A DNA stretch of 64,000 nucleotides from Pseudomonadota bacterium (GTDB lineage: Bacteria; Pseudomonadota; Gammaproteobacteria; Burkholderiales; Thiobacillaceae). Location: the NCBI GenBank assembly GCA_029558905.1, contig JAKQCX010000027.1:1-64000 (forward strand), written 5' to 3'. The notes under the pieces are model-generated. The model was not told the DNA's origin. It searched no databases and worked only from the letters and a program-made list of their open reading frames with translations. The stretch's first letter is position 1. Every line of letters starts with the position of its first letter. Below are positions 21,063 to 25,121 of this stretch, one piece after another. A program made the translations under genes and the position numbers.

Positions 21063-22355
21063 CTACAGCCTGCCCGTGTGCGCCAGGAAGATCGCCCGTG
21101 CCTGGTGGAGATTGCGCCCCAGCAGCATGGCGCTGGCGGCCAGCAGGCCCAGTCCTGGCAGGGCCAGCGGCGCGTGCAGCCACGGCGTGGGCAGCAACAG
21201 GAGCACGGCCGCCAGGTGCAGACGGAAGTGCCAGCGCGCCTTGGCATCGGCGACGAACTGGCGCATGTTCGGAATCTTGCCCGCACCAGCCCGGGTCTGG
21301 GACTGCAGATGAAACCAGCCCAGGAAGGGCACGATCTTGTAGAGCATGCCGTTGACTGCCGAGGCGGCGAAACCCAGCAGGAAGAGCAGACCCAGCAGGA
21401 GCTGCAGGCGGTCGCGCCCGGCATGGGTCTCCAATACCAGGAGCGGCACGAGCAGGGCCGCGGCGATGAGACTGCTCATGCCCAGGCGCCAGAAATCCAG
21501 GGTTACATCCGCCAGCTTGCGTCGGCGCTGGTGTTGCAGCCCGAGGGTGGCCAGCGCGAAGGCCAAGGCGGATGCCATGCCGATCAGCAGGCCCGAGACT
21601 TCCATGCCCGGCCTGGCTCCCCGCGGTACGAACCAGGCCAGGCCGAGGAGCAGCAAGGCAACGGGCATGGCCCAGGTCAGGCTGGCGATCAGGCCGCGTG
21701 GATAGGGTGGGGTGAGCTGCAGCATGGGAACCACCTGGTAGGCCACGCCGATGACCAGGATCAGTATCCAGCCGCCCAAGCCCCAGGCCGCATGCAGGTC
21801 CGTCAGCTCCATGGGGTCGGACAGGTGCCATAAACCCGCCCGGTTCGCGGCCAGGGCCAGGCCCAGGATGAAGGTCACGACCAAGGCCATCCAGGCCTGC
21901 CGCATGGGCCAGGCGACATGCGGCAGGGCGCGGGCCCGCGCGAGGCTGGCCAGGGTGCCGAGCAGAAAGGGGACCAGGCCGACCGTCAGGGCCAGGGCGG
22001 CCAGACCTAACAACACGGGATTGCTGCCCAGGAAGCCCAGCGACAGCAGCAAGGCGCCACTCCCCAGACCGCCCAGGGCCAGCCAGCCGATGAGGCGGGC
22101 GGCGGGTACCGGCGAGCCCACGACCACGGGCAGGATCTGTAGGACCGCGCCGGTCATGACCATGCCCAGATAGCCCAGGGTGAGCAGATGTGTGAGAGCC
22201 AGGGCCTGGGGCGTCCAGCGGCCGGCCAGCCAGTCATCCACCGAGACCATGGCGAGCATGGCCGCAAGGATCAGGAAGACCGGGGCGGCCAGAAACAAGC
22301 GCAGCGGCGTGCCTAAGGGGGGGGCCTGGTCGTAGGACAGACCGGGGCTGGCCAT
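21063..22355 (-). CDS. Polytopic membrane protein, NnrS/heme-copper-oxidase-like
   Basis: This 430-residue protein has about 12 membrane helices with conserved-looking histidines in HLLTLGYLGMV (near 55-65) and WFHL near the end, and a GAVLQILPVVVG stretch. Such His-bearing helices recall NnrS-type heme proteins and cytochrome oxidase subunit I relatives, but I cannot name the family for certain. It is the last gene of a minus-strand unit (tiny membrane protein, DUF2249, this gene): its ATG overlaps the DUF2249 stop by one base (TGATG). Genes of these kinds cluster in nitric-oxide and low-oxygen responses. The inferred role is in NO handling or electron transfer in the inner membrane. Confidence 0.5.
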   Translation of the reverse strand: MASPGLSYDQAPPLGTPLRLFLAAPVFLILAAMLAMVSVDDWLAGRWTPQALALTHLLTLGYLGMVMTGAVLQILPVVVGSPVPAARLIGWLALGGLGSGALLLSLGFLGSNPVLLGLAALALTVGLVPFLLGTLASLARARALPHVAWPMRQAWMALVVTFILGLALAANRAGLWHLSDPMELTDLHAAWGLGGWILILVIGVAYQVVPMLQLTPPYPRGLIASLTWAMPVALLLLGLAWFVPRGARPGMEVSGLLIGMASALAFALATLGLQHQRRRKLADVTLDFWRLGMSSLIAAALLVPLLVLETHAGRDRLQLLLGLLFLLGFAASAVNGMLYKIVPFLGWFHLQSQTRAGAGKIPNMRQFVADAKARWHFRLHLAAVLLLLPTPWLHAPLALPGLGLLAASAMLLGRNLHQARAIFLAHTGRL

Positions 22356-22588
22356 CAGGATGGGGTGTGCGGGTGTGTGATCAGCACTTCGAAACAGCCT
22401 TCCCCGATGGGGCGCACCACATGGTGCAGACCCCTGTCGCGCAGCAGCGCATAGAGGGGAGTTGGCTCGCGGTGGATGAGGAAACGCAGGGTCTGACCAG
22501 GGCGCAGGTCATTCAGAGCCGGCAGTACGCGTTCCATGGGTTCCGGAGGTTCCAGCCAGCGCCCATCCACCAGCACCACGGGTTCCAT
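22355..22588 (-). CDS. DUF2249 (TusA-fold) protein
   Basis: The 77-residue protein resembles the DUF2249 family: an N-terminal strand, the LRPGQTLRFLIHREPTPLY segment and a final strand before a short tail. These proteins have a TusA-like alpha/beta fold but lack the TusA sulfur-carrier CPxP motif, as here (no cysteine at all). They are often found next to hemerythrins and nitrogen-oxide genes. It overlaps the next gene by one base and lies 46 bases after the tiny membrane protein gene. The function is unknown; partner of the membrane protein encoded downstream is a reasonable guess. Confidence 0.7.
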   Translation of the reverse strand: MEPVVLVDGRWLEPPEPMERVLPALNDLRPGQTLRFLIHREPTPLYALLRDRGLHHVVRPIGEGCFEVLITHPHTPS

Positions 22589-22634
22589 GCCGGATGCTGG
22601 TGGATGGGTATGTCGGGGTGCTGCGACAGCGGGA

Positions 22635-22745
22635 TCAGGTCATTTCGAACAGCAGCAGCATGCCGAAATGGAAGACGATGAAGATGAAGAAAATGTAGGC
22701 AACGGCCAAGTTTTCGCTTTTCTGGAAGAGGTACTGGATACCCAT
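22635..22745 (-). CDS. 36-residue single-pass membrane protein
   Basis: The small frame encodes MGIQYLFQKSENLAVAYIFF followed by a hydrophobic run to the end, so one transmembrane helix of about 22 residues. A strong AAGGAG lies 6 bases upstream of the ATG at 22745, which is the main reason to believe it. It is the first gene after a promoter with an FNR-like site and precedes the DUF2249 gene. Small single-pass proteins often stabilise oxidase-like complexes; here it may be a subunit of the polytopic protein encoded at 21063-22355. A longer upstream frame would cross that promoter. Confidence 0.6.
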   Translation of the reverse strand: MGIQYLFQKSENLAVAYIFFIFIVFHFGMLLLFEMT

Positions 22746-22778
22746 GTCCACTCCTTGGGTTTGTTGAGGGTCGGAGAG

Positions 22779-22820
22779 ATTATTATGTACACAAAACGGG
22801 CCGGCATTGACTTTGCTCAA
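22779..22820 (-). promoter_or_regulatory. FNR/Dnr-type site and -10 of the DUF2249 operon
   Basis: TTGA-GCAAAG-TCAA on the minus strand (22807-22820) is a perfect four-base dyad with the N6 spacing of FNR/Dnr boxes (TTGAT-N4-ATCAA). An A/T-rich -10-like stretch (CATAATAATC, about 22778-22787) follows with its centre about 29-32 bases downstream, so the box would lie near -41.5 as in class II activated promoters. The leader to the ATG at 22745 is about 27-30 bases. Confidence 0.6.
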
Positions 22821-22842
22821 CTACCGCCGGTTGCGCCTGTCA

Positions 22843-23268
22843 TCACATGCCGGACAGCAGACGGTCGGCCTCGTCGGCCAGAGCCTGATCCATCATGGGA
22901 TAGAGGATGTTTTCCTCCTTGAGGTTGTGCTGACGCATGAGCATGAGCAGGGTTTCGGACAGCCCCAGATAGCGTTGGCCGTCACGAGCCTGCAGGGCCT
23001 GTTCCATGGCAGCGATGGCGTCGCGCATCTGTTCGTGCTCCGAGCGCATGACGAAGGTGGGTCCACCCTTCATGCCGGTGCGGTTTTCAAAGGCGGTGAA
23101 CAGTACTTCATCTTCCTGGGAGAAGTGGTGCAGGGTATCCCGGGCGAAGGCCTGGAACTGTTCCTGTGCACGTGGCCAGTCTCCTTCGGCCACGGCGTTT
23201 TCCGCCGCGGCGAACAAGGTGTCACAGTGCTCGTGCTGCTTGGCAAGGGTCTGTGAAAAATGGGGCAT
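22843..23268 (-). CDS. Hemerythrin HHE-domain protein
   Basis: The 141-residue all-helical protein has the spaced histidines and carboxylates of the hemerythrin fold: His12 and His14, His47-His48 with Glu52, His78, and His114 with Glu118/Glu119. It should bind a non-heme di-iron centre and may sense or buffer O2, NO or act in iron-sulfur repair, like YtfE/DnrN relatives, though it is shorter and lacks their N-terminal domain. The ATG at 23268 is favoured by GGAGG 7 bases upstream. An FNR-like box and a -10 lie just upstream (23300-23341), giving the same regulatory picture as the operon that follows. Confidence 0.8.
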   Translation of the reverse strand: MPHFSQTLAKQHEHCDTLFAAAENAVAEGDWPRAQEQFQAFARDTLHHFSQEDEVLFTAFENRTGMKGGPTFVMRSEHEQMRDAIAAMEQALQARDGQRYLGLSETLLMLMRQHNLKEENILYPMMDQALADEADRLLSGM

Positions 23269-23299
23269 GGCATGACCTCCGTGATCTGGCATGGCAGGG

Positions 23300-23341
23300 A
23301 TTATGGAAACGGACCGGGCAGTCAACCTTGACTAAAGGCAA
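23300..23341 (-). promoter_or_regulatory. FNR-like site and -10 upstream of the hemerythrin gene
   Basis: The plus-strand word TTGA-CTAAAG-GCAA (23328-23341) matches an FNR box with one mismatch; a perfect dyad GTCAA-CC-TTGAC (23321-23332) overlaps it. On the minus strand a CATAAT -10 hexamer (23300-23305) has its centre 32 bases from the box centre, the class II distance. The same hexamer occurs in the neighbouring promoter. Confidence 0.45.
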
Positions 23342-23425
23342 CCACGCGCCCGTGGCCTGCCCGTCAAGGCCGCATGACCCTGCCTGCGACATTGGCAAGC
23401 CTGATTTCGGTCAAGACACAATCGC

Positions 23426-24541
23426 ATGGGTCATGGGAGCATGCGCGCTATGCTGATCGCACTCGTTGCCGCGACCCTGGTGGCCTTGCTGGCCGGCCAG
23501 GCCTTACCCAAGGTCATTGCCGCCGCCCCGGCCTTCTGGGCGCACATCGTCCTGGCCATGGGGGTGATGACCCTGATCACCGCCGCCATGCAGCACTTCG
23601 TGCCCGTGCTGGCCCGTACCCGGGGAGCGAGCCCACACATGGCGCGCCTGCCCCTGCTCATGCTTCTGGCGGGCAGCCTGGCCGTGCTCGCCCTGGGGGG
23701 ATGGATAGATTTCTACTGGGTGAGCGTGGCGGCCTTGCTGGGGCTGGTGGGCATGGCGGTGATGGTGGCCTGGATGCTCGACCGGGCGCGCCAGGCGCTG
23801 GGGCGTCCGCATCCCGGTCTCAACTGGTATGGGGCGGCCATGGTCTGCCTGGGTCTGGCCCTGGCGGCGGCCCTCATGATCCCTCTGTTCCCGGACTGGT
23901 ACCATGCCCTGCGGGCCTTTCACCTGCATCTGAACCTCTATGGCTTCGTGGGTCTGACCGCCGTGGGGACGCTGCAGGTCCTCATGCCTACCGCTGCGGG
24001 CCAGGCGGATCCCCAGGCCGCACTGCGTCTGAGGCAGGATCTGAAATGGGCCCTGGGAGGGGCCTTGGCGATCGCCATCGGTCAGGCTGCCTGGCCGGTA
24101 CTCGCCTGGTTGGGCGTGGCCCTGTGGATCTGGGTGATGGGGCGCATGGGCTGGGCCTGGTGGGGTTTGCATCGCGCGCGCATATTGAGCCTGCATGGCG
24201 CCGAACCAGTGCTGGCCGCTGCCTGGCTGGGCTATGTGGCGGCCTTGATCGGTGTGCTCCAGGACCAGGCCAATCCGCTGGCCCAGTTTCTGCCGGCCTT
24301 TCTCATGCCCCTGGTGACCGGCGCTGCGGGGGTGCTGGCTCCGGTCTGGCTCAACCCCGCCCGGCCCGCCAGCCACGCGACGGGACGACAGGCGCTGAAC
24401 CGCTGGGGCAGCGTGCGTGCCGTATTTTTCCTGGTGGCGGGCATTCTGCCCCTGCTTGGCTACCAGTGCGCCGGCATGCCGGCCCTGACGGCCCTGATCT
24501 GGTTCGGCATCCTGTTCGCCGTTTGGCTGTACTACCAATAA
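23426..24541 (+). CDS. Polytopic membrane protein, NnrS-like
   Basis: The 371-residue protein has about 10 to 12 membrane helices, with histidines inside helices at AHIVLAMGVMTL and FHLHLNLYGFVGL, the latter resembling heme- or metal-binding helices of NnrS and oxidase-like proteins. It looks distantly related to the 430-residue protein encoded at 21063-22355 and lies divergent from the hemerythrin gene, so the three probably share a NO or low-oxygen theme. The start is uncertain: ATGs at 23426, 23441 and 23450 are all in frame, and a GGGAG lies between them. A weak FNR-like word CTGA-TTTCGG-TCAA is at 23401-23414. Confidence 0.5.
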   Translation: MGHGSMRAMLIALVAATLVALLAGQALPKVIAAAPAFWAHIVLAMGVMTLITAAMQHFVPVLARTRGASPHMARLPLLMLLAGSLAVLALGGWIDFYWVSVAALLGLVGMAVMVAWMLDRARQALGRPHPGLNWYGAAMVCLGLALAAALMIPLFPDWYHALRAFHLHLNLYGFVGLTAVGTLQVLMPTAAGQADPQAALRLRQDLKWALGGALAIAIGQAAWPVLAWLGVALWIWVMGRMGWAWWGLHRARILSLHGAEPVLAAAWLGYVAALIGVLQDQANPLAQFLPAFLMPLVTGAAGVLAPVWLNPARPASHATGRQALNRWGSVRAVFFLVAGILPLLGYQCAGMPALTALIWFGILFAVWLYYQ

Positions 24542-24641: not shown

Positions 24642-25121
24642 ATGAATTGCATGCAACGCAGTGCCTTGGTTGTCTCCCTGACCGCCCTGTTCAGCCTGTC
24701 TGGAGCGGTATATGCGCAAGATGCGGCCCAGGCGGAGGCCGCGCCCGCCCCGGCCCCACAGGCCACGGACGCCATGCCGGATGCGGCGCCCGGCATGATG
24801 CGTGGCAAGGGTGGCATGGGGCCCGGAGGCGGCATGATGGGCATGGGGCCCGGCAAGGATTGTGATCGACCGGGCATGGGCATGGGCATGGGGCCCGGGT
24901 CCGGTAAGATGGGCATGGGCATGGGCATGGGACCTGGAGCCGGCAAAATGGGTATGGGACCCGGCATGATGGGACCCGGAATGGGCATGGGTCCAAACTG
25001 CCAGCGCATGGGTGAGGGCAGGCCCGGATGCGCCATGCATCAGGATCTGGACCGGCGGGTGGGAGACCTGGAAAAGCGTCTGGACATGATGCAGATGATG
25101 ATGAAGATGATGATGAAATAG
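24642..25121 (+). CDS. Secreted Met/Gly-rich protein
   Basis: The 159-residue protein has a signal peptide (about residues 1-25), an Ala/Pro-rich linker, then a low-complexity core (about 51-120) of GMGPG/GKMGMG repeats in which about a third of residues are methionine, and a C-terminal amphipathic heptad-like helix ending in Met-Lys pairs. GGAG lies 6 bases before the ATG at 24642. Methionine-rich periplasmic segments in copper proteins bind Cu(I), so metal binding is a reasonable inference but is not shown. It follows the NnrS-like gene by 100 bases and precedes mutL. I know no family for it. Confidence 0.65.
   Translation: MNCMQRSALVVSLTALFSLSGAVYAQDAAQAEAAPAPAPQATDAMPDAAPGMMRGKGGMGPGGGMMGMGPGKDCDRPGMGMGMGPGSGKMGMGMGMGPGAGKMGMGPGMMGPGMGMGPNCQRMGEGRPGCAMHQDLDRRVGDLEKRLDMMQMMMKMMMK

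Follow-up and report, generated by a model that had tools for sequence, protein, structure and literature searches.

A candidate Dnr-controlled nitric oxide module with a 36-residue membrane protein in a Thiobacillus-like betaproteobacterium

The locus and its promoter boxes

The subject of this report is a cluster of five genes in a 64,000-nucleotide stretch of DNA, referred to throughout as the window, which comprises positions 1 to 64,000 of contig JAKQCX010000027.1 (GenBank assembly GCA_029558905.1). The host genome is a 2.6 Mb draft, ~90% complete, from a Thiobacillus-like betaproteobacterial family; it encodes nirS, further d1-type proteins and the norCB genes of a cNor, and is in that sense the genome of a nirS/cNor denitrifier. 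Read 5' to 3' on the minus strand, the cluster encodes a hemerythrin-domain (HHE) protein, a 36-residue membrane protein that we call SMP36, a DUF2249 protein and a larger membrane protein, A, and a second large membrane protein, B, is encoded divergently on the plus strand (Table 1). All five genes named in an initial annotation of this DNA were found at the locus, and the coordinates that it gave are good for the cluster apart from the start of B, which is probably 23450 rather than 23426, since homologues begin MLIxLVAATL.

The hemerythrin, DUF2249 and A genes are found together in nearly all of the 39 loci taken from relatives, and the HHE-DUF2249-A operon is conserved in Beta- and Gammaproteobacteria; in the window genome SMP36, with a perfect box of its own, is inserted between the hemerythrin and DUF2249 genes. 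Two dyads of the FNR type, one of them perfect, had been predicted here, with -10 hexamers spaced as in class II promoters, and both are present, each with a -10-like hexamer ~30 bases from the dyad centre, which is the class II geometry. Transcription is predicted to start near 23293 for the hemerythrin promoter, ~41.5 bp from the centre of its box, and near 22772 for the SMP36 promoter. The -10 hexamers had both been read as CATAAT, and this holds for the hemerythrin promoter; at the SMP36 promoter it is AATAAT that lies at exactly the class II distance, overlapping the CATAAT originally proposed.

Table 1. Genes and promoter elements of the cluster, in window coordinates
Feature	Position	Strand	Description
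Protein A, 430 aa	21063-22355	-	12 transmembrane helices, heme-copper oxidase subunit I fold, invariant His56 and His188
DUF2249 protein, 77 aa	22355-22588	-	PF10006 E=4e-16; TusA-like, EPPEP motif
SMP36, 36 aa	22635-22745	-	One predicted helix, invariant His26; without Pfam, NCBIfam or PDB relative
SMP36 promoter -10	CATAAT 22782-22787, overlapping AATAAT 22784-22779	-	Sequence
SMP36 promoter Dnr/FNR box TTGAGCAAAGTCAA	22807-22820	-	Perfect 8/8
Hemerythrin-domain (HHE) protein, 141 aa	22843-23268	-	PF01814 E=6e-21
Hemerythrin promoter -10 hexamer CATAAT	23300-23305	-	Sequence
Hemerythrin promoter Dnr/FNR box TTGCCTTTAGTCAA	23328-23341	-	7/8 dyad
Protein B	23450-24541	+	12 transmembrane helices, heme-copper oxidase subunit I fold, homologue of A

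The initial annotation had staked its reading on the presence of FNR-type sites in orthologous operons, and such sites are common there. When the 200 bases upstream of 95 distinct orthologous HHE-DUF2249-A operons were scanned, a dyad matching at least 7 of 8 positions was present in 64 of them, as compared to 8.1 expected from shuffled sequences (maximum 15 in 200 shuffles), and a perfect dyad in 36 (0.36 expected, maximum 3). The boxes lie largely at one position, mostly 67-92 bases ahead of the start codon. Of 50 aligned sites, 47 retain a flanking G outside the scanned pattern, and 36-40 retain the A..AT of the -10 region. The joint conservation of position, sequence, flanking G and -10 region is strong evidence that the box is functional. 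Chance dyads were ruled out by the shuffles and by the background in other open reading frames (ORFs). It is very improbable that the arrangement as a whole is an accident of unrelated neighbours beside a chance dyad, since the gene set and its boxes are conserved across many genera, even though SMP36 and B do lie elsewhere in most relatives.

Membrane proteins A and B and their soluble partners

The description of A and B as polytopic, His-bearing membrane proteins is borne out, and both appear to be built like subunit I of the heme-copper oxidases (HCO). AlphaFold (AF2) models of A and B, with predicted local distance difference test scores (pLDDT) of 94.8 and 86.8, can be aligned from end to end with CcoN, the cbb3 oxidase subunit, and with NorB; in fold alignments to CcoN the model of A scored Z 35.0 over 396 residues at 3.2 A and that of B Z 30.1 over 350 residues, and A is homologous to B (hhalign E=5e-8). 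The CcoN, CcoN-like and NorB proteins of the same genome share six histidines (H63, H212, H262, H263, H350 and H352), and the six-ligand set of the HCO is distributed over transmembrane helices (TM) 2, 6, 7 (two) and 10 (two). Neither A nor B has this set. With histidines assigned to helices by collinear fold alignment, the only invariant ones in A are H56 (TM2) and H188 (TM6), and B keeps a His at both of these positions and none in TM7 or TM10, its other conserved histidines being elsewhere. As only the TM2 and TM6 ligands are kept, A and B cannot form the usual heme-heme/copper active site, and each most likely binds one heme or metal.

"NnrS-like", the label that A and B had been given, is loosely right at most. 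NnrS (PF05940) belongs, like the genes considered here, to NO (nitric oxide)/denitrification regulons, and some distant relatives of A do score against it, at E values up to 5.5e-7; with a cut-off as permissive as E=10, matches to the family come from 3 of 29 relatives of A (best 5.5e-7) and from 1 of 7 relatives of B (best 1.9). The window proteins A and B themselves had no Pfam matches, and hhalign gave a probability of only 7.7% for A against NnrS. Eight NnrS proteins share invariant H54, which aligns with H56 of A, and H324, whereas A keeps H56 and H188. Membership of A and B in the NnrS family was rejected on the strength of the missing Pfam match and the different His pattern; three true NnrS genes are found elsewhere in the genome.

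Twelve-helix, two-His homologues of the heme-copper oxidases ("three-unit HCOH") were reportedly described in a denitrification context by Pei et al. 2014. A and B resemble them in having 12 TM in the fold of HCO subunit I, two invariant histidines and a DUF2249/denitrification context; the marks of the group (12 TM, HCO fold and two conserved histidines) are all present in A, and both proteins probably belong to this known kind. To our knowledge, a neighbour such as SMP36 is not described. In some relatives B is paired with a second type of DUF2249 protein (DARGIAKRFRHAAIFGALDAL), as seen at L038:3361-4744, L040:14093-15550, L049:13634-15145 and L050:1195-2630; in L038 and L049 nar genes adjoin the pair, and B of the window is without this partner.

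The identities assigned to the two soluble proteins were both upheld. The hemerythrin scores 75.7 bits against PF01814 and its HHE ligands (H12, H48, E52, H78, H114 and E118) are invariant. It shares the HHE di-iron domain and the occurrence in NO regulons with the RIC/YtfE/DnrN iron-sulfur repair proteins, from which it differs in being shorter and single-domained and in scoring 30 bits against a cut-off of 205; assignment to that group was rejected (23-33 bits for the NCBIfam equivalogs, cut-offs 204-300). The DUF2249 protein scores 58.9 bits against PF10006 (cut-off 29.5), with a proline (P14) conserved in 38 of 39 sequences. Its motif lacks the Cys of the TusA CPxP motif, and a TusA sulfurtransferase was rejected as its identity, the catalytic Cys being absent and the TusA match (E=0.0033) falling below the cut-off.

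The description of the module as uncharacterised proves only half right, earlier work having connected DUF2249 with denitrification and the nor genes (PMC1274295, PMC6282519, PMC11218638). COG4309/DUF2249 genes are tied to nor genes in the NsrR, NnrR and DNR regulons (PMC1274295), a likeness that extends to the NO-responsive type of regulator; there, however, they are co-transcribed with nor, and here their partners are a hemerythrin and an HCO homologue. A link to denitrification is likewise reported for haloarchaea in PMC11218638, which cites Pei et al. 2014 for the connection of DUF2249 with the HCO superfamily. In Thermus, DUF2249 is tied to nitrate sensing through DrpA and DrpB (PMC6282519), which resemble the present case in the small DUF2249 protein, the Dnr-named activator and the context of nitrate respiration, and differ from it in being proposed nitrate sensors from an operon without hemerythrin or HCO-fold partner. 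By analogy, A, B and DUF2249 could act in signalling, as sensors of nitrate, nitrite or NO that adjust the Dnr regulon instead of detoxifying. DrpA and DrpB do alter the expression of dnr and nar (PMC6282519), and two loci from relatives have the DUF2249-B pair next to nar genes; we consider this reading unlikely, as DrpB has another domain make-up (DUF1858 and two DUF2249), no HCO-fold partner is described in that system, and the hemerythrin of the operon points to iron/NO chemistry. No paper joining hemerythrin, DUF2249 and NnrS was found in the literature collection that was searched.

SMP36 and the company it keeps

That the 36-residue membrane protein is the product of a real gene, as originally proposed, follows from its codon pattern, in which third positions diverge most (0.44 vs 0.25-0.30), from a GGAG just before the start in 22 of 24 copies, and from homologues in 42 genomes. 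The consensus reads MNxQKIFExSENxAVxxxVxLFIVFHFGxLYLFxxV, with M1, Q4, E11, N12, A14, V15 and H26 invariant. Searches against Pfam, NCBIfam and PDB profiles gave chance-level scores only. A perfect 8/8 box lies within 150 bases upstream of 20 of the 24 copies (0.06 expected by shuffling); the background in the first set of loci was 16 of 383 other ORFs. SMP36 is the new part of the cluster and its most consistently boxed member, a point that the initial annotation had not made, and as far as could be found it has not been described.

All counts within the family refer to 100 genomes of the host's family, 42 of which carry SMP36. It was not found in 369 other genomes of a class sample, and among 399 genomes of an order sample it occurred only in those of the same family; SMP36 thus looks family-specific, although in so short a protein divergent homologues may escape detection. 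Within the family it follows a close clade of norB, which is present in 38 of the 42 genomes with SMP36 and 9 of the 58 without it (Fisher p=1.5e-14, a value that ignores shared ancestry); put the other way, SMP36 is present in 38 of 47 genomes with this clade and 4 of 53 without it, and none of 18 genomes with a distant norB type carries it. The large sister genus g6, whose sequenced relatives are labelled Thiobacillus, has in most genomes a norB of the distant type (38-40% identity) or else a long qNor-like protein; SMP36 is almost always absent from them. Ten family genomes in the order sample have the close clade, and these are the very ten that have SMP36; outside the family, the clade without SMP36 is present in seven genomes. 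When seven genomes of the order from outside the family were searched by rule for SMP36-like ORFs close to norCB, none was found; as a control the same search re-found SMP36 in L205, L207 and L216 and missed it in L215, where SMP36 has no box. On this distribution SMP36 travels with NO reduction in the family and is not required by the norB clade everywhere.

In most loci SMP36 either directly follows nirJ-nirN or has norCB/NnrS as a neighbour; otherwise it is found beside hemerythrin/A and at a few unrelated sites. A Dnr-type regulator gene follows it at L207:6203-7276 (+), with norCB before SMP36 on the other strand. In the close norB clade a membrane protein of ~115 residues without Pfam match precedes norC-norB at L087:10399-10746 (+) and has equivalents in L207, L215, L216 and L218; it is perhaps another subunit or assembly factor of the nitric oxide reductase (NOR).

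Tiny single-helix subunits are known from membrane oxidases (CcoM, CcoQ and CydX), and SMP36 resembles them in its very small size and single predicted helix; it differs in its invariant membrane His and in the lack of a significant family or solved-chain match. In cytochrome b559 heme is ligated by a membrane His in a dimer, and SMP36, with an invariant His in its one predicted helix, might likewise be a minimal b-type cytochrome (a dimer with His-ligated heme) or else a partner of A/B, without a link to NOR in either case. SMP36 does adjoin A in five loci, yet several SMP36-positive genomes lack A (e.g., G028, G062, G083, G097 and G123), and its tie to the norB clade is closer than its tie to A, which is present in 36 of the 42 genomes with SMP36 and 37 of the 58 without; a role apart from NOR therefore seems rather improbable.

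Probable Dnr-type control and a likely role in nitric oxide metabolism

Two of the genome's Crp/FNR-family genes encode proteins for which Pseudomonas aeruginosa DNR is the best solved relative (3dkw, E=7e-42 and 1e-31), a match far above that to FNR, and the N-terminal Cys cluster of FNR is absent from all four Crp/FNR-family proteins that were read, the DNR-like pair included. In the same genome nirS, one NnrS gene and one DNR-like gene each have a perfect box. The DNR-like regulators, the missing Cys cluster and the boxed nirS, NnrS and DNR-like genes make Dnr-type control a better reading than FNR, and we regard it as very probable for the cluster; together with the conserved sites, they bear out the FNR/Dnr-type control and NO link that the initial annotation put forward.

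The relatives and their gene content point in the same direction. In locus L070 the cluster adjoins nirS, a Dnr-type regulator and norCB, and elsewhere the cluster or parts of it lie beside nar genes (L038, L049), NnrS (L048) or nirJ-nirN (L037). Protein A is present in 73 of the 100 family genomes, and a NOR of any type was found by query in 64 of these as compared to 9 of the 27 without A. The search of other genomes suggested at the outset thus revealed a conserved operon and a protein A that tracks NOR genes; the suggested co-occurrence with norB/nirS holds for SMP36 with the norB clade and for A with NOR; a strong cd1-NirS match is missing from 25 of the 73 A-positive genomes. The presence of A in genomes without nirS means that it is not a strict denitrification marker. 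An oxygen-limitation module of the FNR/Anr type, in which oxygen is delivered or sensed by hemerythrin, with A/B engaged in microaerobic respiration or the biogenesis of cbb3, would accommodate this finding, and it would also suit the closest fold to A and B, which is CcoN of the cbb3 oxidases, and the TTGA-N6-TCAA box, which FNR reads too. The DNR-like regulators without FNR Cys cluster, the nir, nor, nar and NnrS neighbours in relatives and the tracking of NOR genes by A all speak against such a module, and we hold it to be unlikely.

The explanation that we favour, with some reserve, is an accessory denitrification/NO module under Dnr-type control, and a role of some kind in NO metabolism or denitrification is likely on the comparative record. 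A Dnr-type activator (NO-sensing, of the FNR family) would switch the module on when NO appears at low oxygen. A and B, as HCO homologues that have lost the catalytic site, would act at the membrane by binding, sensing or passing on NO, not by reducing it; the di-iron hemerythrin would buffer NO or protect iron on the cytoplasmic side, with DUF2249 as a partner. SMP36 would be accessory, most likely a small subunit or an assembly/stability factor of the norCB NOR (or of the nir apparatus), and would possibly use its invariant membrane His. These assignments of detailed roles to single proteins are tentative, and the same reserve applies to the suggestion that SMP36 is a lineage-specific mini-protein, an extra subunit or minimal heme/NO-binding partner of the cNor clade, that cooperates with NO-binding, catalytically dead A/B.

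Several observations weigh against this explanation. The TTGA-N6-TCAA box fits FNR and Dnr alike, and in a genome that is incomplete an FNR gene could be missing from the assembly. At -49 the 7/8 dyad upstream of B stands nearer than class II activation allows, and any control of B in its own right at this locus would be conjectural. Besides the A-positive genomes without nirS there are nine in which no NOR was found by query, so that the role of A may extend more broadly to low oxygen or NO detoxification. As for SMP36, four genomes have it without the norB clade, shared ancestry may not be set aside when its association is read, and in L210 (6085-6192), L212 (4678-4785) and L222 (6018-6125) it lies away from nir/nor genes, with a perfect Dnr box, beside a gene for alanine dehydrogenase or a GDT1-type antiporter.

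DUF2249 proteins, non-catalytic HCO homologues and hemerythrins recur near NO genes with no agreed function, and the conserved, boxed operon offers a compact set in which the three can be studied jointly. SMP36 stands out as a candidate small subunit or factor of NO or nitrite reduction that has been overlooked, of a kind that annotation pipelines skip; a simple rule (a perfect Dnr box and a tiny single-helix ORF) finds it and could be used on other denitrifiers, whose handling of NO sets the emission of N2O. A plasmid search at the DNA level gave no matches. Between B and mutL, at window positions 24642-25121 (+), lies a gene for a secreted-looking protein with a Met/Gly-rich repeat (MGMGPG...), which had no matches in Pfam or NCBIfam and is possibly copper-binding.

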